Origin: Pseudomonas mosselii
GTDB taxonomy: Bacteria > Pseudomonadota > Gammaproteobacteria > Pseudomonadales > Pseudomonadaceae
Length of the DNA: 64,000 nt
NCBI RefSeq assembly: GCF_019823065.1
Contig: NZ_CP081966.1
Coordinates: forward strand, 2,697,501-2,761,500
Direction: 5' to 3'
The notes under the pieces were generated by a model. That model had not been told where the DNA came from. It did not search any database and saw nothing but the letters and a program-made list of their open reading frames with translations. A program made the position numbers and the translations under genes. This document shows, in pieces, positions 9,779-53,632 of this stretch (positions are counted from its first letter, which is position 1; each line of letters opens with the position of its first letter).

Positions 9779-10736
9779 GGGCGGGCCTCCTTGCGGTGCG
9801 GTTGAACAGGCTGAGGATGAACGCCGCGCCGGCCAGGTGCAGGCGCAGCCAGTGCAAGCCCCAGAGTTGCAAGGTGAGCAGCGGGTCATGGTGCCGGCGG
9901 CTCTGGCGCAGGCTCAGGAACAGCGCGGGCAGTGCGCTGACCAGCAGGAAGAACAGGGCCACATGGGGGAAACCGTCGAGCAGGGCCGACAGGGCTATGG
10001 CATCCAGTACCCAGGCCCCCACCGAAAGCAGCGGGAAGCGCAGCAGGCGCAGGCTGACGCCATGGCTGCGCAGCAGTTGCAGGTGGCTGCCCTGGCGCCA
10101 CATTTCCTTGCCCAGCCATTCACGCCAGTTGGCCTCGTAGCCCCAGTGCAGCACCGCGGGCTGGCGCAGTACGCGCAGGCGCGCGCCGGATTCATGCAGG
10201 CGCAGGGTGAAATCCTTGTCTTCGCCAGTGCGCAGGCGCTCGTCGAAACCGCCGACCTGGTCGAACCAGCTGCGGCGCATCAGCAGGTTGGGGGTGGGCA
10301 GCCAGGTGCAGTCCTGCACCGTCTGCCCGGTGCGCAGGGTACGCCGTTGCCAGGCCTGGGCGAACCACGGGGCTTGGCGCGGGGTGTCGCAGTCCAGGGC
10401 GAAGACATCGCCTTCGCCGCGGCGCTGCAGGTCCAGCAGCAGGTCGAGCCAGTGCTCGGGCACCTCGATGTCGGCGTCGAGGAAGGCCAGCCATTCGCCG
10501 TGGCTGGCGGCTACGCCGGCGTTGCGCAGGGCGCCGATGGCCACACCGGGCAGGCTCAGCACCTGGGCACCGTGCTCGCGGGCGATCCGCGGGCCGTCGT
10601 CACTGGAGCCGTTGTCCACCACGATCAGCTCGCAGGCCAGGCCCGCCGCGCTGGCCGAGCGCCGGGCGGCATCCAGGGTGCGGCCGATATGGCGGGCCTC
10701 GTTGAACATCGGGATGACGATGCTCACCCGGCTCAT
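9771..10736 (-). CDS. GT2 family glycosyltransferase
   Basis: A 321-residue protein beginning MSRVSIVIPMFNEARHIG, with VVDNGSSDDGP and the DxD site in WLAFLDADIEVP, the standard GT-A nucleotide-sugar-binding core. RRSWFDQVGGFDERLRTGED is the acceptor-side motif. One or two C-terminal hydrophobic helices probably hold it at the inner membrane. The start codon overlaps the wzy stop by 4 nt. It transfers one sugar of the exopolysaccharide repeat; donor and linkage are not predictable. Confidence 0.88.
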   Translation of the reverse strand: MSRVSIVIPMFNEARHIGRTLDAARRSASAAGLACELIVVDNGSSDDGPRIAREHGAQVLSLPGVAIGALRNAGVAASHGEWLAFLDADIEVPEHWLDLLLDLQRRGEGDVFALDCDTPRQAPWFAQAWQRRTLRTGQTVQDCTWLPTPNLLMRRSWFDQVGGFDERLRTGEDKDFTLRLHESGARLRVLRQPAVLHWGYEANWREWLGKEMWRQGSHLQLLRSHGVSLRLLRFPLLSVGAWVLDAIALSALLDGFPHVALFFLLVSALPALFLSLRQSRRHHDPLLTLQLWGLHWLRLHLAGAAFILSLFNRTARRPARG

Positions 10737-12103
10737 CGGGCCACCTCCACCGGCTGTTGTTCACGGGCCTGGCCCAGCAGCACGCTGGACAGCGCCAACA
10801 TCAGCCACAGGTACTTGTGGCTGGGGGCGCTGAGGAACATCAGGAACAGGCCGATGGCCAGCATGCTCATGGTCAGGTGGGTCATCAGGTCGGCGCGGTC
10901 TGGGTCGCCGGCGGCGCGGAAGGCGGCGCGGGCCCGCCAGAAGTTGCGCAAGGCCAGGGCGATCATGCCGACGAACAGCAGGCCCGCCGGCAGGCCGACC
11001 TCGCTGAACAGCTCCAGGTAGGTGTTGTGGGCGCGGCGGTAGAGGTCGGTGGTCTTGCTGTTGACCGGGGCGAAGGCCTTGGAGAAGCCGGTGTCGGCGT
11101 AATGCAGCGGGAAGGTGCCGGGCCCGGTGCCGAGCAGCGGGCTGTGGCTGATCATTTCCTTGCCCACCACCAGGTAGGAGGCGCGCCGACCCAGCGATTC
11201 GTCCTGGTGCGCGTTGACCCCCGACTTGAGCAGCATCAGCGACTGAATGCGGTCGGCGTAGCCTGCCGGCATCAGTGCCACGCCCAGGGGCAGGACGATG
11301 GCCAGGCCGAGCATGGCGAAGCCCAGGTGGCGCGGACGGATGCAGGTCAGTTGTTCACGGTAGTTGTACAGCATCATGCCCAGGCTGATCAGCAGCACCA
11401 CCAGCCCCGAGCGCGATTCGGTCTTGGTCATGCCCACCAGCAGCAACAGGCAGCAGCCGGCCCAGAACAGCTTGACCGGGATCTGCCGGGCCTTGATCGC
11501 CAGCCACAACCCCAGCGGCATGGCGATGGTGATCAGCAGGGCGAAGGCGTTGGGATCGAGCATGGCCGAGGCGCGGCCCTGCTCCTGGTACTTGGTGGAG
11601 AAGATCGCGAACAGGCAGGTCACGCACACGCTGACGGTGATCAGCCGGGCCAGCATCGGCAGGTTGAGGTCGCGGCCGACCAGCAGGGTGATGACGAACA
11701 CCACCAGGCCCACCAGCAGCTCGCGCAGGTGTCCGCCCGACAGGGCCAGGTCGTCGCTGGTCCACAGGCTCAGCAGGTACAGGGCCATGAACGGCAGCAG
11801 CAGGCGCCACTGGTTGCTGCGCAGGCGCTCGCCGGGCAACTGGCGCACCGCCAGTTGCAGGCTGAGGATCAGCACCAGGCCGATGCCCACCAGCTTGGCG
11901 CCGGACACCAGGCCGTCCTTGAGCAGGCCCTCCAGCGGCACCAGGGTGGCGATCACCAGCAGGCCCCAGGCGGGCTTGCGGTACAGCACCAGCACGCCGG
12001 CCAGGCCGATCACGCCGCCGGGGGCCAGGAACGGGTAGGGGCTGGCCAGCAGCCCCAGGCTCAGCAGGGCCACCAGGGCCACCAGCGACAGGGGAATGAT
12101 CAT
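10733..12103 (-). CDS. Wzy-type O-antigen polymerase/ligase-like membrane protein
   Basis: A 456-residue protein with at least ten hydrophobic helices and a large hydrophilic loop at about residues 290–370, containing LLGTGPGTFPLHYADTG and RRAHNTYLELFSEVG. The H-N-x-x-L-E/Y-x-x-x-E-x-G pattern is characteristic of the Wzy_C/O-antigen ligase family. The start at 12103 is used because it gives a hydrophobic first helix and an ATGA overlap with the GT4 stop; sequence further upstream is another frame of the GT4 gene. It should polymerise repeat units in the periplasm. Confidence 0.88.
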   Translation of the reverse strand: MIIPLSLVALVALLSLGLLASPYPFLAPGGVIGLAGVLVLYRKPAWGLLVIATLVPLEGLLKDGLVSGAKLVGIGLVLILSLQLAVRQLPGERLRSNQWRLLLPFMALYLLSLWTSDDLALSGGHLRELLVGLVVFVITLLVGRDLNLPMLARLITVSVCVTCLFAIFSTKYQEQGRASAMLDPNAFALLITIAMPLGLWLAIKARQIPVKLFWAGCCLLLLVGMTKTESRSGLVVLLISLGMMLYNYREQLTCIRPRHLGFAMLGLAIVLPLGVALMPAGYADRIQSLMLLKSGVNAHQDESLGRRASYLVVGKEMISHSPLLGTGPGTFPLHYADTGFSKAFAPVNSKTTDLYRRAHNTYLELFSEVGLPAGLLFVGMIALALRNFWRARAAFRAAGDPDRADLMTHLTMSMLAIGLFLMFLSAPSHKYLWLMLALSSVLLGQAREQQPVEVAR

Positions 12104-13296
12104 GCGACAACCTCCTCGGCCGTGCCCCGGTACACCAGGGCCCAGCGTTGTGCCAGGGTCGGCAGGTGGTAGCGTTCGCGTTGCGTGCGGCGGGCGCCGG
12201 CGACCAGCTCGGTGGCCTGCGCAGGATCCTGCAGCAGGGCCTCGAGGTGCGCGCCGAGCTCGGTGCTGGCCATGGGCGCGGCCAGCAGGCCGTTGCGACC
12301 GTGCTCGATGACATCGGGGATGCCGCCGACGCCGAAGGCCACCACCGGCACGCCATCCTGCATGGCCTCGAGCAGGATCATCGGCGTGCCTTCGGTGCGC
12401 GAGCTGATGACCAGGGCGTCCAGGCGCTTCATCCAGGCGCGCATGTCGCGCTGGAAGCCCGGCAGGGTGATGCGCGCGGTGAGGCCGGCGGCGTCGATGC
12501 GGGCCTGCAGGGTGTCGCGCTCGGGGCCTTCGCCGAGCATCACGGCATGGACCTGTGGGTGGCGCTGGCACACCGGGATCAGAGTGTCGAGGAACAGGTC
12601 GGGGCCTTTTTCGCTCGACAGGCGGCCGACATAGGCGGCGAGCCAGGGTTTTCTATCGCCTTGGCGAGGAGCAGACGTGGGAGCAGGCTTGCCCCGCGAT
12701 TCACTGTTGTGTTCGGCATCGCCATCGCGGGGCAAGCCCGCTCCCACGCCTGCGGTCAGGTCAACCTCCTGGTGCTCGGGCAACCCGTTGGGAATCACCC
12801 GCAACTTGGCCTCGGGTACGCCGGCATCGCGATGGATGCGGGCGATGCTCTCGGCCACGCACACCACCGTGTCCACCGTCGGCGTGCGGCACAGTTGCAG
12901 GCTTAGCCAGGTATAGAAGCGCTGCTTGCGGCTGCGCGGGGTGAAACCATGCTGGGTACTGACCATCGGCAGGCGCCACAGGGTGGCGCCGATCCAGCCG
13001 AACAGCTGGCCCTTGAAGTTGTGGCTGTTCACCAACGGACGTTGCCCGCGCTGCGCGCCGAGTACCTTGAGCACCGCCCCCAGCCCCTGGCAGGTGTCGC
13101 ACTCGACACCGGCTTCGCGAAAGCGCGCCACCAGCTCTGCCGGGGCATCGAGAAACAGCACCCGATGCTGGCCGGGAGTGGCCTGGCAGTGGTCCAGGAG
13201 CATGCGCTCGGCGCCGTAGAATCCGCCACTGCCGAGCAGGTGCAGGATCGGCCGGCCGGCGTGCAGCGCGGCGTTCAATTGCGCACCCAGTGCCAC
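12100..13296 (-). CDS. GT4 family glycosyltransferase carrying an in-frame REP-encoded insert
   Basis: A 398-residue GT-B enzyme. The N-terminal domain starts with PILHLLGSGGFYGAERMLLD; the C-terminal domain has YVGRLSSEKGPDLFLD, VISSRTEGTPMILLEAMQDG and VVAFGVGGIPDVIEHG, including the E-x7-E signature. The start is a GTG. Residues about 183–207, between IPNGLPEHQEVDLT and the second Rossmann domain, are encoded by a REP pair at 12676–12748 read in frame, giving a Gly/Pro/Ser-rich stretch unlike the family. The insert falls in the interdomain linker, so activity may survive. It overlaps the wzz gene by 22 nt and wzy by 4 nt. Confidence 0.9.
   Translation of the reverse strand: MALGAQLNAALHAGRPILHLLGSGGFYGAERMLLDHCQATPGQHRVLFLDAPAELVARFREAGVECDTCQGLGAVLKVLGAQRGQRPLVNSHNFKGQLFGWIGATLWRLPMVSTQHGFTPRSRKQRFYTWLSLQLCRTPTVDTVVCVAESIARIHRDAGVPEAKLRVIPNGLPEHQEVDLTAGVGAGLPRDGDAEHNSESRGKPAPTSAPRQGDRKPWLAAYVGRLSSEKGPDLFLDTLIPVCQRHPQVHAVMLGEGPERDTLQARIDAAGLTARITLPGFQRDMRAWMKRLDALVISSRTEGTPMILLEAMQDGVPVVAFGVGGIPDVIEHGRNGLLAAPMASTELGAHLEALLQDPAQATELVAGARRTQRERYHLPTLAQRWALVYRGTAEEVVA
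12676..12748. repeat. REP pair (BIME) inside the GT4 coding sequence
   Basis: Two 25-nt arms, 12676–12700 and 12724–12748, are inverted copies of each other with 24 of 25 positions matching, separated by 23 nt. The arm contains GGCTTGCCCCGCGAT, the core of P. putida REP elements. The element has no stop codon in the host gene's frame and is translated as part of the glycosyltransferase. Confidence 0.9.
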
Positions 13297-14849
13297 AGGC
13301 GTGGCAGCGACCAGCTTTTGTGCGGGTTGGGCAGCGCCGGGGCCTGGTCGTTGATCACCAGCAGCACCGGCAGGCCCAGCTCGTGGCTGATCTGCGCCGG
13401 ATGCTTGAAGCGGTGGTCGAAGAACTCCCTGACGTAGACCACGGCGATCGCCAGCAGCAGGCCGGTGATCAGGCCGAACGGAATGATCAGGCCAGGTTTC
13501 GGGAAGCTTGCCGCGGTAGGTTCATAGGGGGCGCTGAGGATCCGCGCGTTGGACTGGCTGCCGTCGAGCAGGCCCTGGCCACGGCTTTCCTCGTAACGCT
13601 GGGCGTAGGTGGAGAAGGCCTTGTGCAGGGCATCGATCTCGGTATCCAGCTGGCGGGTCTTGCTCTGGGTCTCGCGCAGCTGGAGGATGCGCTTGCTGTA
13701 GTCGGCGATGCGCTGGGTCTTCTGCTCGATCACCTGCTGGGTCACCGCCAGGTCCTGCTGGCGCTCACGGATGCGGTTCTCGACGATCTTGAGGAACTGC
13801 GCGCGCAACTGGGCGATCTGCTGGCGGGCCATGACCATCTGGTCGGAGCCCGGCTGGAACACCGTGGCGTCGCCGTTGTAGCGGGCCAACTGAGTGGTCA
13901 GTTGCTCACCGAGTTGCTTGATCTCGCGGTCCTCGAAGGCGATGTTGTCGACCGTGGTGGTGAAGGTGTAGGGGAAGGCGTAGTCGGCCATCTTCGCCTT
14001 GTTGGCCGCGGCCAGGCTGCTTTGCAGGTAGTCGAGCCACTTCTGGTTCTGCAACTGGCGGTCACGTTGCAGGTTGAGCGCCTGCTCCTCGGTGTTGATG
14101 GCATTGAGGCGGAAGGTGATCTCTTCCTTGGGGTCCGACGAGCCGATGGCGGTCAGCAGCCCCAGGCGCTGGCTTTCCAGGTCGCCCAGCCGTGCCTGGT
14201 AGTGCAGTTTCTTCTGCTCGTAGAACGCTTCGGGCAATTCGTTGGACTGCAGGTCCTGGCGGTTGGTCAGGAAGTTTTCCAGCAGGCGGCTGACGAACAG
14301 CGTGCCCAGCTTCGGATCGTTGGCGCCGTAGGTGATGGAGATCACGTTGGAGCCGGGCAGGGTCTCGACCTTGAGGTCCTTGACCGCCTGGTCGGTGAGG
14401 GTGTCGAGCTGGGTGTCGCGGTCATCGGCGACGGTGTTGCCGAACAGCCGGTGCAGCGGGTCGAGCACCGCGTGGCGCAGCGGGTCGAGCACGGTACGGC
14501 GCAGCAGGCCGGGCTCGTCCGGGTAATGGCCTTCCTTGCGCAGCTCGCCGATGGTCTGGCGGATCAGGGTCGGCGAGCGCAGGATGTTGCTCTCGGTCTC
14601 CATGTCGGCCAGCGACGGCGGGATGAACTGATCGGCCTGCTGGCTGAGCGCCGAGGTGGTGTCGCTCTGCGAAAGCTTCTTGGACTGCACGATGACTTCG
14701 GCGGTGATGTCGTAGCTCTGCTTGAGCACCAGCGGCAACAGCACGGCGATCACCGCGAACACCAGGAACACCCGTTTCACCAACTGGCGGTTGGCAAAGA
14801 AGATGCGGAAGAACTCATGCACATAGTTTTCTTTGGGTTGCGTGGTCAT
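13275..14849 (-). CDS. Wzz/GumC-type chain-length determinant without kinase domain
   Basis: A 524-residue inner-membrane protein. It has a transmembrane helix at about residues 27–45 (VFLVFAVIAVLLPLVL), a long periplasmic coiled-coil region of about 400 residues with the 'PGSNVISITYGANDPKLGTLFVSRLLENF' type segment seen in EPS Wzz proteins, and a second helix at about 455–475 (PFGLITGLLLAIAVVYV). A short cytoplasmic tail ends PRLWHWVRN with no Walker motifs. The ATPase/kinase half is encoded separately three genes upstream in the operon order. It controls polymer length and contacts Wza. Confidence 0.9.
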   Translation of the reverse strand: MTTQPKENYVHEFFRIFFANRQLVKRVFLVFAVIAVLLPLVLKQSYDITAEVIVQSKKLSQSDTTSALSQQADQFIPPSLADMETESNILRSPTLIRQTIGELRKEGHYPDEPGLLRRTVLDPLRHAVLDPLHRLFGNTVADDRDTQLDTLTDQAVKDLKVETLPGSNVISITYGANDPKLGTLFVSRLLENFLTNRQDLQSNELPEAFYEQKKLHYQARLGDLESQRLGLLTAIGSSDPKEEITFRLNAINTEEQALNLQRDRQLQNQKWLDYLQSSLAAANKAKMADYAFPYTFTTTVDNIAFEDREIKQLGEQLTTQLARYNGDATVFQPGSDQMVMARQQIAQLRAQFLKIVENRIRERQQDLAVTQQVIEQKTQRIADYSKRILQLRETQSKTRQLDTEIDALHKAFSTYAQRYEESRGQGLLDGSQSNARILSAPYEPTAASFPKPGLIIPFGLITGLLLAIAVVYVREFFDHRFKHPAQISHELGLPVLLVINDQAPALPNPHKSWSLPRLWHWVRN

Positions 14850-28054: not shown

Positions 28055-28117
28055 ATGATCGCGGGGCCAGCCCGCACTCACGTATCCTGTGAGTGTTGGG
28101 CCTGGCCCCGTGATCAT
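28055..28117. terminator. Bidirectional hairpin terminator
   Basis: Two arms, 28055–28081 and 28089–28117, form a long imperfect stem closed by GTGAGT/ACTCAC around a 7-nt loop. The element lies between convergent genes (stop 28051 and stop 28123), so it can end transcription from both sides. The GGGGCCAG-rich arms are related in style to Pseudomonas REP-derived hairpins. Confidence 0.75.
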
Positions 28118-29191: not shown

Positions 29192-29510
29192 GATTGCCTC
29201 CGTTGCATTCAATGAATGAAATACCGTAACCAACGCTTGCGCAGGCGGGCGGAGGAAAAGGGGAGAGGCAGGTAGACGGGCGGATGTACTGGCGTGCCCG
29301 GTGCGAGCGGCTGTTGGCAGCCGGCTTGTGCAGCCATCCCTGAAGTGCGGTGCCGCCTGCCTGGCAGCCCGCTTGAGTTAAGCAGGCAAAAGATGCCGTG
29401 ATGGCCTTTTTGCATTATGTCCGACGAGTGGTGACATCAAGGTCTGCAAGCCGGCTCCCGCCCCGTGAGAACCGGCTTGTCCCGCGATGAGCTCTACAGG
29501 GCGGACCGCC
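29192..29510. repeat. Gene-free stretch with a degenerate REP hairpin
   Basis: 319 bp between a lipoprotein stop and the DUF1842 operon. A REP-like inverted pair lies at 29446–29490 (AAGCCGGCTC…GAGAACCGGCTT followed by GTCCCGCGAT). The promoter of the DUF1842 pair should be in 29192–29400, but no clear boxes were seen. No RNA gene was recognised. Confidence 0.55.
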
Positions 29511-53601: not shown

Positions 53602-53632
53602 TGTAGGGGCGGGTTTGCCCCGCGAAGAGGTC
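53602..53632. repeat. REP-like element between the two inverted repeat copies
   Basis: TGTAGGGGCGGGTTTGCCCC followed by GCGAAGAGGTC is the standard core of a P. putida REP. It lies in the centre of the roughly 160-bp spacer separating the inverted copies. Three tandem CTCTTG hexamers (53671–53688) follow it. Confidence 0.75.

Follow-up and report, generated by a model that had tools for sequence, protein, structure and literature searches.

In-frame REP sequences in the interdomain linker of a predicted GT4 glycosyltransferase of Pseudomonas mosselii and its relatives

A translated REPIN in the GT4 gene of an EPS-like operon

The window analysed here, 64,000 nucleotides of Pseudomonas mosselii contig NZ_CP081966.1, encodes a GT4 glycosyltransferase of 398 aa on the minus strand (positions 12100..13296). 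Its upstream neighbour encodes a Wzz/GNVR chain-length determinant (13275..14849, minus strand), and its downstream neighbour, which overlaps the end of the GT4 gene, encodes an O-antigen ligase/polymerase-like protein with a Wzy_C domain (10733..12103, minus strand). Polysaccharide export, bacterial sugar transferase, epimerase, two GT2 and polysaccharide deacetylase proteins are encoded in the same operon, and one of the nine neighbour proteins examined is without a Pfam match. As these neighbours are of the polysaccharide type, the operon looks like an EPS locus, and by sequence the GT4 protein looks like a glycosyltransferase of that operon. Pfam GT4 domains are found at residues 87-172 and 215-370, with PF00534/PF13692 and PF13439 over the cut-off, and residues TEGTPMILLEAM (301-312) fit the EX7E pattern.

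The two domains are joined by a linker of 44 aa (residues 174-217; 12646..12777, minus strand), within which lies a pair of inverted arms of 30 nt each (12671-12700 and 12724-12753), 93% complementary (28/30) and spaced by 23 nt. Both arms match the REP sequence GTGGGAGCNGGCTTGCCCCGCGAT exactly, and the 25-nt arms of the original prediction are the core of these 30-nt arms. In the sense of the mRNA, arm 1 (12724..12753, minus strand) encodes AGVGAGLPRD and the inverted arm 2 (12671..12700, minus strand) encodes SRGKPAPTSA; between them is the 23-nt loop (12701..12723, minus strand), identical at 18 of 23 positions to the loop found in P. peradeniyensis BW13M1. The minus-strand ORF (13296-12100) stays open across the whole element, which encodes residues 182-209 of the linker, so the original reading of the element as a stop-free insert between the GT-B domains is borne out. 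A misread ORF was ruled out by the domains on both sides, the alignment of relatives and coding codon composition on both sides. The linker is 13-14 aa long in 117 of 172 homologues (lengths that include the W), giving a net gain of about 30 aa here, 28 of them from the REPIN.

We used AlphaFold2 with an alignment of 40 proteins, hand-picked from the 120 then in hand, to model the protein (mean pLDDT 77.4). Residues 174-210 and 212-214 fall under pLDDT 50 and form a loop between the last strand of the N-domain (165-167) and the first strand of the C-domain (218-223), which predicts that the REPIN-encoded segment is disordered and connects the two GT-B domains. Among solved structures, the nearest folds are those of GT-B enzymes, the first of them Anabaena HepE (4xso, Foldseek E 6.7e-17), which shares the fold, whereas the GT4 protein described here has a long, low-confidence, REP-derived interdomain loop.

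The element belongs to a family repeated throughout the host genome. Allowing up to 3 mismatches, GTGGGAGCNGGCTTGCCCCGCGAT has 4 matches in the window and none in 100 shuffles, and at up to 1 mismatch there are 306 matches (146+160) in the 6.35-Mb genome, as against none for the reversed control. The claim that protein sequence has here been derived from REP DNA is upheld. In the mRNA, the two arm mismatches become G-U pairs, judging by the arm letters, and the REPIN is predicted to fold into a hairpin of -72.6 kcal/mol (z -10.2), a stability reached by 0 of 200 shuffles; this agrees with the strong hairpin proposed for an EPS mRNA. A chance GC-rich palindrome is ruled out by the genome-wide family and by the window and hairpin shuffles, and an intrinsic terminator by the absence, by eye, of a U-run after the stem. 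We dropped an apparent strand bias of the REP matches, because the matches listed omit known exact ones such as the second arm in the window itself. Degenerate single REP-like copies are also present at 28058-28081, 29465-29488 and 53603-53626 of the window, the first two between likely genes. Two genomic REPIN spacers of 27 nt (L129 and L131) differ at one base, suggesting recent copying or duplication in this genome.

REPINs have been described as inverted REP pairs that form a hairpin and belong to a highly repeated family (Bertels & Rainey 2011, PMC3116915). The element in the GT4 gene is likewise an inverted pair that forms one hairpin, with arms from a REP family enriched in the host genome. 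The REPINs of that study are mostly extragenic, REP 16-mers occurring 1,067 times in strain SBW25 with only 14 overlapping genes, whereas the GT4 REPIN is coding. For intragenic REPs, Di Nocera et al. (2013, PMC3733652) considered ORFs of known proteins and excluded hypothetical proteins of less than 120 aa; the REP sequence described here lies wholly inside a 398-aa ORF, is read through and has Pfam GT domains on both sides. Its position inside an intact GT4 ORF departs from a strictly extragenic REP, and it is therefore classed as an intragenic REPIN only.

In order to determine how rare coding REPs are in the host genome, we examined 80 other REP sites, picked from 100 places among the matches listed. 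None of the 80 passes a strict composition test (GC3 highest and GC2 lowest on both sides, with 30 open codons on each side), and the GT4 site does. With GC3 alone and 50 open codons per side, two of the 80 first looked coding; both were rejected, as they have no Pfam match at E 0.1 and run antisense to better coding frames. Both tests need an open frame on each side, so that REPs near gene ends escape the count. The outcome of the strict test supports the original view that the location is unusual for a REP.

Linker types and REP families across Pseudomonas

Homologue searches each returned the best 120 of about 8,000 scored candidates, and the last search added no new protein. Of the 174 homologues obtained, P0068 and P0092 did not parse and the linker is readable in 172; P0042 was also left out of the comparison of linker sequences. 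Eight of the 73 homologue loci (L005, L046, L051, L057-L060 and L070) are without a parsed linker. Among the 172 proteins, a REP peptide signature is present in 35 (4 of type A, 5 of type B, 25 of type C and 1 of a fluorescens type). The others lack it: 120 of them have short linkers and 17 longer ones, 10 of which resemble the soli-group linker EICEAQAKDGVGAAQPGGAP. We further surveyed 398 sampled species of the genus and found the GT4 gene at E <= 1e-60 in 121. The main match lies within 9 aa of the query length in 112 of these, including the soli-group genomes G275 and G404 (+7); this comparison leaves out the additional copy of G452 (+9 aa) and includes a partial match from G034. In 110 species the match is open and carries no large insertion. 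Long linkers occur in eight, with REP sequences in seven (G000, G102, G104, G110, G245, G249, G438) and a non-REP insert in G332, while two species carry a possible scar. The insert of G332 (L055, G332:C1:188953-189099, 49 aa) was rejected as a REP, being single-copy in its genome with a best secondary match of 19 nt.

The relatives differ in what occupies the linker. In P. peradeniyensis (L002/L031) a REPIN with a similar 23-nt loop and a different arm subtype is present in the same linker, and Pseudomonas sp. CAM1A (P0002) has a similar REPIN peptide at the protein level. Other members of the mosselii group carry another REP type, putida/parafulva linkers contain one to five REP arms, linkers of the soli group are 20 aa long and possibly deletion scars, and in one fluorescens-type lineage the position is taken by an unrelated REP family of that lineage. 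In P0020 the linker peptide joins a type-C-like REPIN to a type-B-like REP in one protein. The orthologue L156 (G391:C113) has a frameshift right at the linker; its genome is 78% complete, and the gene may be either a pseudogene or misassembled.

The resident REPs belong to families of their own genomes in several lineages. For the type-B REP, we counted 529 matches in G249, 402 in G245, 396 in G104, 210 in G110, 206 in G000 and 148 in G102, and the A/C pattern has 310 in G000, 698 in G102, 180 in G473 (home of L037), 118 in G474 (home of L039) and 355 in G249. A genome can thus harbour several REP types at once, and it does not dictate which type resides at the linker. Matches to the fluorescens-type REP number 212 in G438, whereas G000, G084, G332 and G473 have none, and G438 in turn has no match to a REP of type A, B or C. 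For this locus (L056), REP identity rests on the linker sequence and the genome-wide family, and no inverted repeat of at least 20 nt was found among its arms.

We reconstructed a tree from the flanks for 95 of 182 rows, comprising 59 of 66 long-linker rows (7 duplicates removed) and 36 of 116 short-linker rows picked by hand, with SH-aLRT as the only support measure. Type C forms one clade (99), and a 25-row clade (100) mixes types A, B and soli-group linkers; the wider putida-group node, which includes short linkers, reaches only 86. The G438 lineage is placed among short-linker relatives. Its different REP family and its short-linker relatives make it the best evidence for independent colonisation of the linker. 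L037 and L039 have 37-nt loops that agree at 28 of 37 positions, where the best of 10,000 shuffles reaches 23, so a single event may underlie both.

The distribution runs against the original prediction that the insertion is recent and missing from relatives, since REPIN or REP linkers are present in P. peradeniyensis, CAM1A, putida-group proteins and the fluorescens-type lineage. The prediction had itself named many genomes with an in-frame element at the linker as an argument against recency, and such genomes exist. It also expected EVDLT to stand directly next to WLAAYVGR in homologues; none of the homologues compared shows this arrangement, and EVDLT is not conserved.

Probable turnover and observed conservation at the linker

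Between the REPIN of the window and that of P. peradeniyensis BW13M1, 18 of the 23 loop positions are identical, and none of 10,000 shuffles gave more than 16. A merged loop pattern searched in 8 genomes is found exactly only at these two loci, with 2 further matches at 2 mismatches, 8 at 3 mismatches and 1 control match. The arms of BW13M1 are 41 nt long, 100% complementary and of an extended subtype (type A-extended), whose core is found 49 times in the BW13M1 genome when up to 3 mismatches are allowed. If the loop marks one inherited insertion shared by the two loci, then both arms have changed together while loop and frame were kept, possibly by gene conversion or arm-to-arm templating. 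The flanks of BW13M1 are nearest to those of the type-B carrier P. mosselii LB-090624 (41 differences in 1014, against 59 to the window), indicating that REP type and flank history disagree.

Copy number has also varied. In clade C (n=25), linkers of 26, 32, 64, 70, 78 and 116 aa are found in 6, 5, 1, 3, 9 and 1 rows, respectively. The lengths 26-64, 32-70 and 78-116 are each 38 aa (114 nt) apart, with smaller steps at 26-32 and 70-78. The soli-group DNA of L061 reads GTGGGAGCG-CTACAG, resembling what an internal deletion would leave of a REPIN, its two outer ends. Derivation of this putative scar from type B is unsupported, as its genome (G275) has 94 A/C matches and no type-B match. The GT4 gene of Pseudomonas sp. 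RIT623 (L036) is a mosaic, its 5' half grouping with L004 (96/92) and its 3' half with the soli group (100/98), the junction lying about 60-110 nt upstream of the linker.

In the type-B loci (n=5), the insert has a pN/pS of 0.74 and the flanks one of 0.16, based on pooled pairs that are not independent. Within the insert, the arms and adjoining stems vary at 3 of 58 first and second codon positions, against 26 of 66 in the rest (p 4e-6), and at 5 of 29 third positions, against 18 of 33 (p 0.004); third positions vary at 122 of 339 in the flanks (p 0.043 against the arms). Conservation of the type-B arms over the rest of the insert is not predicted by neutrality of the whole insert, unless other REPs homogenise the arms, and the arms could be held either by selection or by such homogenisation. 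In a windowed control, 2340 of 40265 flank window pairs are equally conserved. Covariation gave no proof of a selected stem: only one of 57 predicted stem pairs is compensated, and 14 are only broken.

A probably permissive landing place for REPs

We consider it likely that the REPIN sits in a permissive interdomain linker, a site that REPs have colonised on more than one occasion in Pseudomonas, with residents that have been turned over in frame, largely neutrally. REPINs would most likely enter by RAYT-type single-strand transposition, the model for REPIN entry, under which no target duplication is expected. None is visible by eye at the edges of the element, whose exact limits are uncertain, and we found no counterpart of this allele that lacks it; the duplication that the original prediction suggested checking for is thus not apparent, consistent with that model. 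The host genome has two neighbouring RAYT-like genes (G000:C1:4395824-4397813) over the Pfam Y1_Tnp cut-off. They score 78 and 70.6 bits against the NCBIfam REP-transposase cut-off of 80, which no gene of the genome reaches; one has an internal TGA, and the nearest 1.5 kb or so around them is free of type-A and type-B REPs. Once inserted, REPINs would survive only where the protein tolerates extra residues. The type-A core is free of stops in all six frames, and the type-B REP has a stop in one of six, so that a type-A REPIN with an open loop and a frame-keeping length simply lengthens the linker. The resident would then be mostly neutral GC-rich filler that is changed, duplicated or trimmed, by exchange of the arm type with the loop kept, gain or loss of the 38-aa unit, or internal deletion, the frame staying open.

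A recent, strain-specific insertion would fit the in-frame REP and the short linkers of most homologues, but we regard it as extremely improbable, given the similar-loop REPIN of P. peradeniyensis, the similar peptide of CAM1A and the other REPs across the clade; the 18/23 loop match already points to one inherited insertion. The disagreement between REP type and flank phylogeny would be explained if the REP-bearing linker were a recombination joint at which N- and C-terminal domains are exchanged among alleles of the EPS enzyme. BW13M1 is nearest to LB-090624 in its flanks, the 3' halves of the two group with support of 100/97, and L036 is a mosaic. The break in L036, however, lies upstream of the linker and not inside it, 5' halves are poorly resolved and the loci are few, and exchange at the linker thus seems very unlikely to us.

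The REPIN might instead be kept for a role of the nucleic acid, its hairpin slowing ribosomes while the N-domain folds or tuning RNA decay or transcription in the EPS operon. The stability of the predicted mRNA hairpin favours this, as do the long hairpins predicted, without shuffle control, in type A-extended, type-B, type-C and entomophila inserts and the type-B arms that stay conserved while the rest of the insert drifts, with third positions slightly below flank variability. On the other side, stem pairs are mostly broken rather than compensated where they change, the windowed control is weak, soli-group alleles lack the hairpin and most sampled species lack a large insertion; ribosomes would moreover open the hairpin, and without a U-run it is no intrinsic terminator. 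We therefore judge such a role unlikely. A broader version, in which the linker is a genus-wide hotspot capturing unrelated REP families, kept as a copy-number-variable coding element because a hairpin in RNA or DNA tunes the making or recombination of the EPS enzyme, with the arms rather than the peptide maintained, is possible as a selected role but appears rather unlikely as a whole. The permissive linker with largely neutral residents is the reading we prefer, under which REPs seem to have landed in this linker repeatedly and to be tolerated there, in contrast to a single recent insertion.

In-frame intragenic REPs are already known. ORFs that enclose entire GTAG/CGTC REPs, single or as dimers, have been reported, and more than half of these intragenic REPs are dimers or groups that encode 20-30 aa; the authors suggest that such insertions are neutral where they fall in flexible linkers or loops, and in two Xanthomonas species recB has different REPs at roughly the same position (PMC3733652). 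In contrast to those elements, several REP types and an unrelated family are found across a genus in one linker of a polysaccharide gene here, where arms and unit copy number have changed and possible scars occur. Rickettsia palindromic elements are palindromic mobile DNA translated inside proteins, in many unrelated genes (PMC10969869, PMC3733652). The likeness to the GT4 REPIN, also a translated palindrome, is by description only, and the spread over unrelated genes is not seen here, as none of the 80 sampled other copies looks coding. In the open-access literature, setting aside the supplement of PMC3733652, which may list this gene, our searches brought up no publication that deals with this gene or with interdomain linkers carrying REPs, and none, in the same literature, that reports the occupation of one linker by unrelated REP families.

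The linker thus offers a natural series at one protein position, from no insert through one REP, a REPIN and three or five arms to a possible scar and an unrelated REP family. Such a series makes it directly testable whether REPs are merely tolerated or contribute to proteins or mRNAs, and the paired change of arms around a similar loop is a useful record of REPIN evolution in place.
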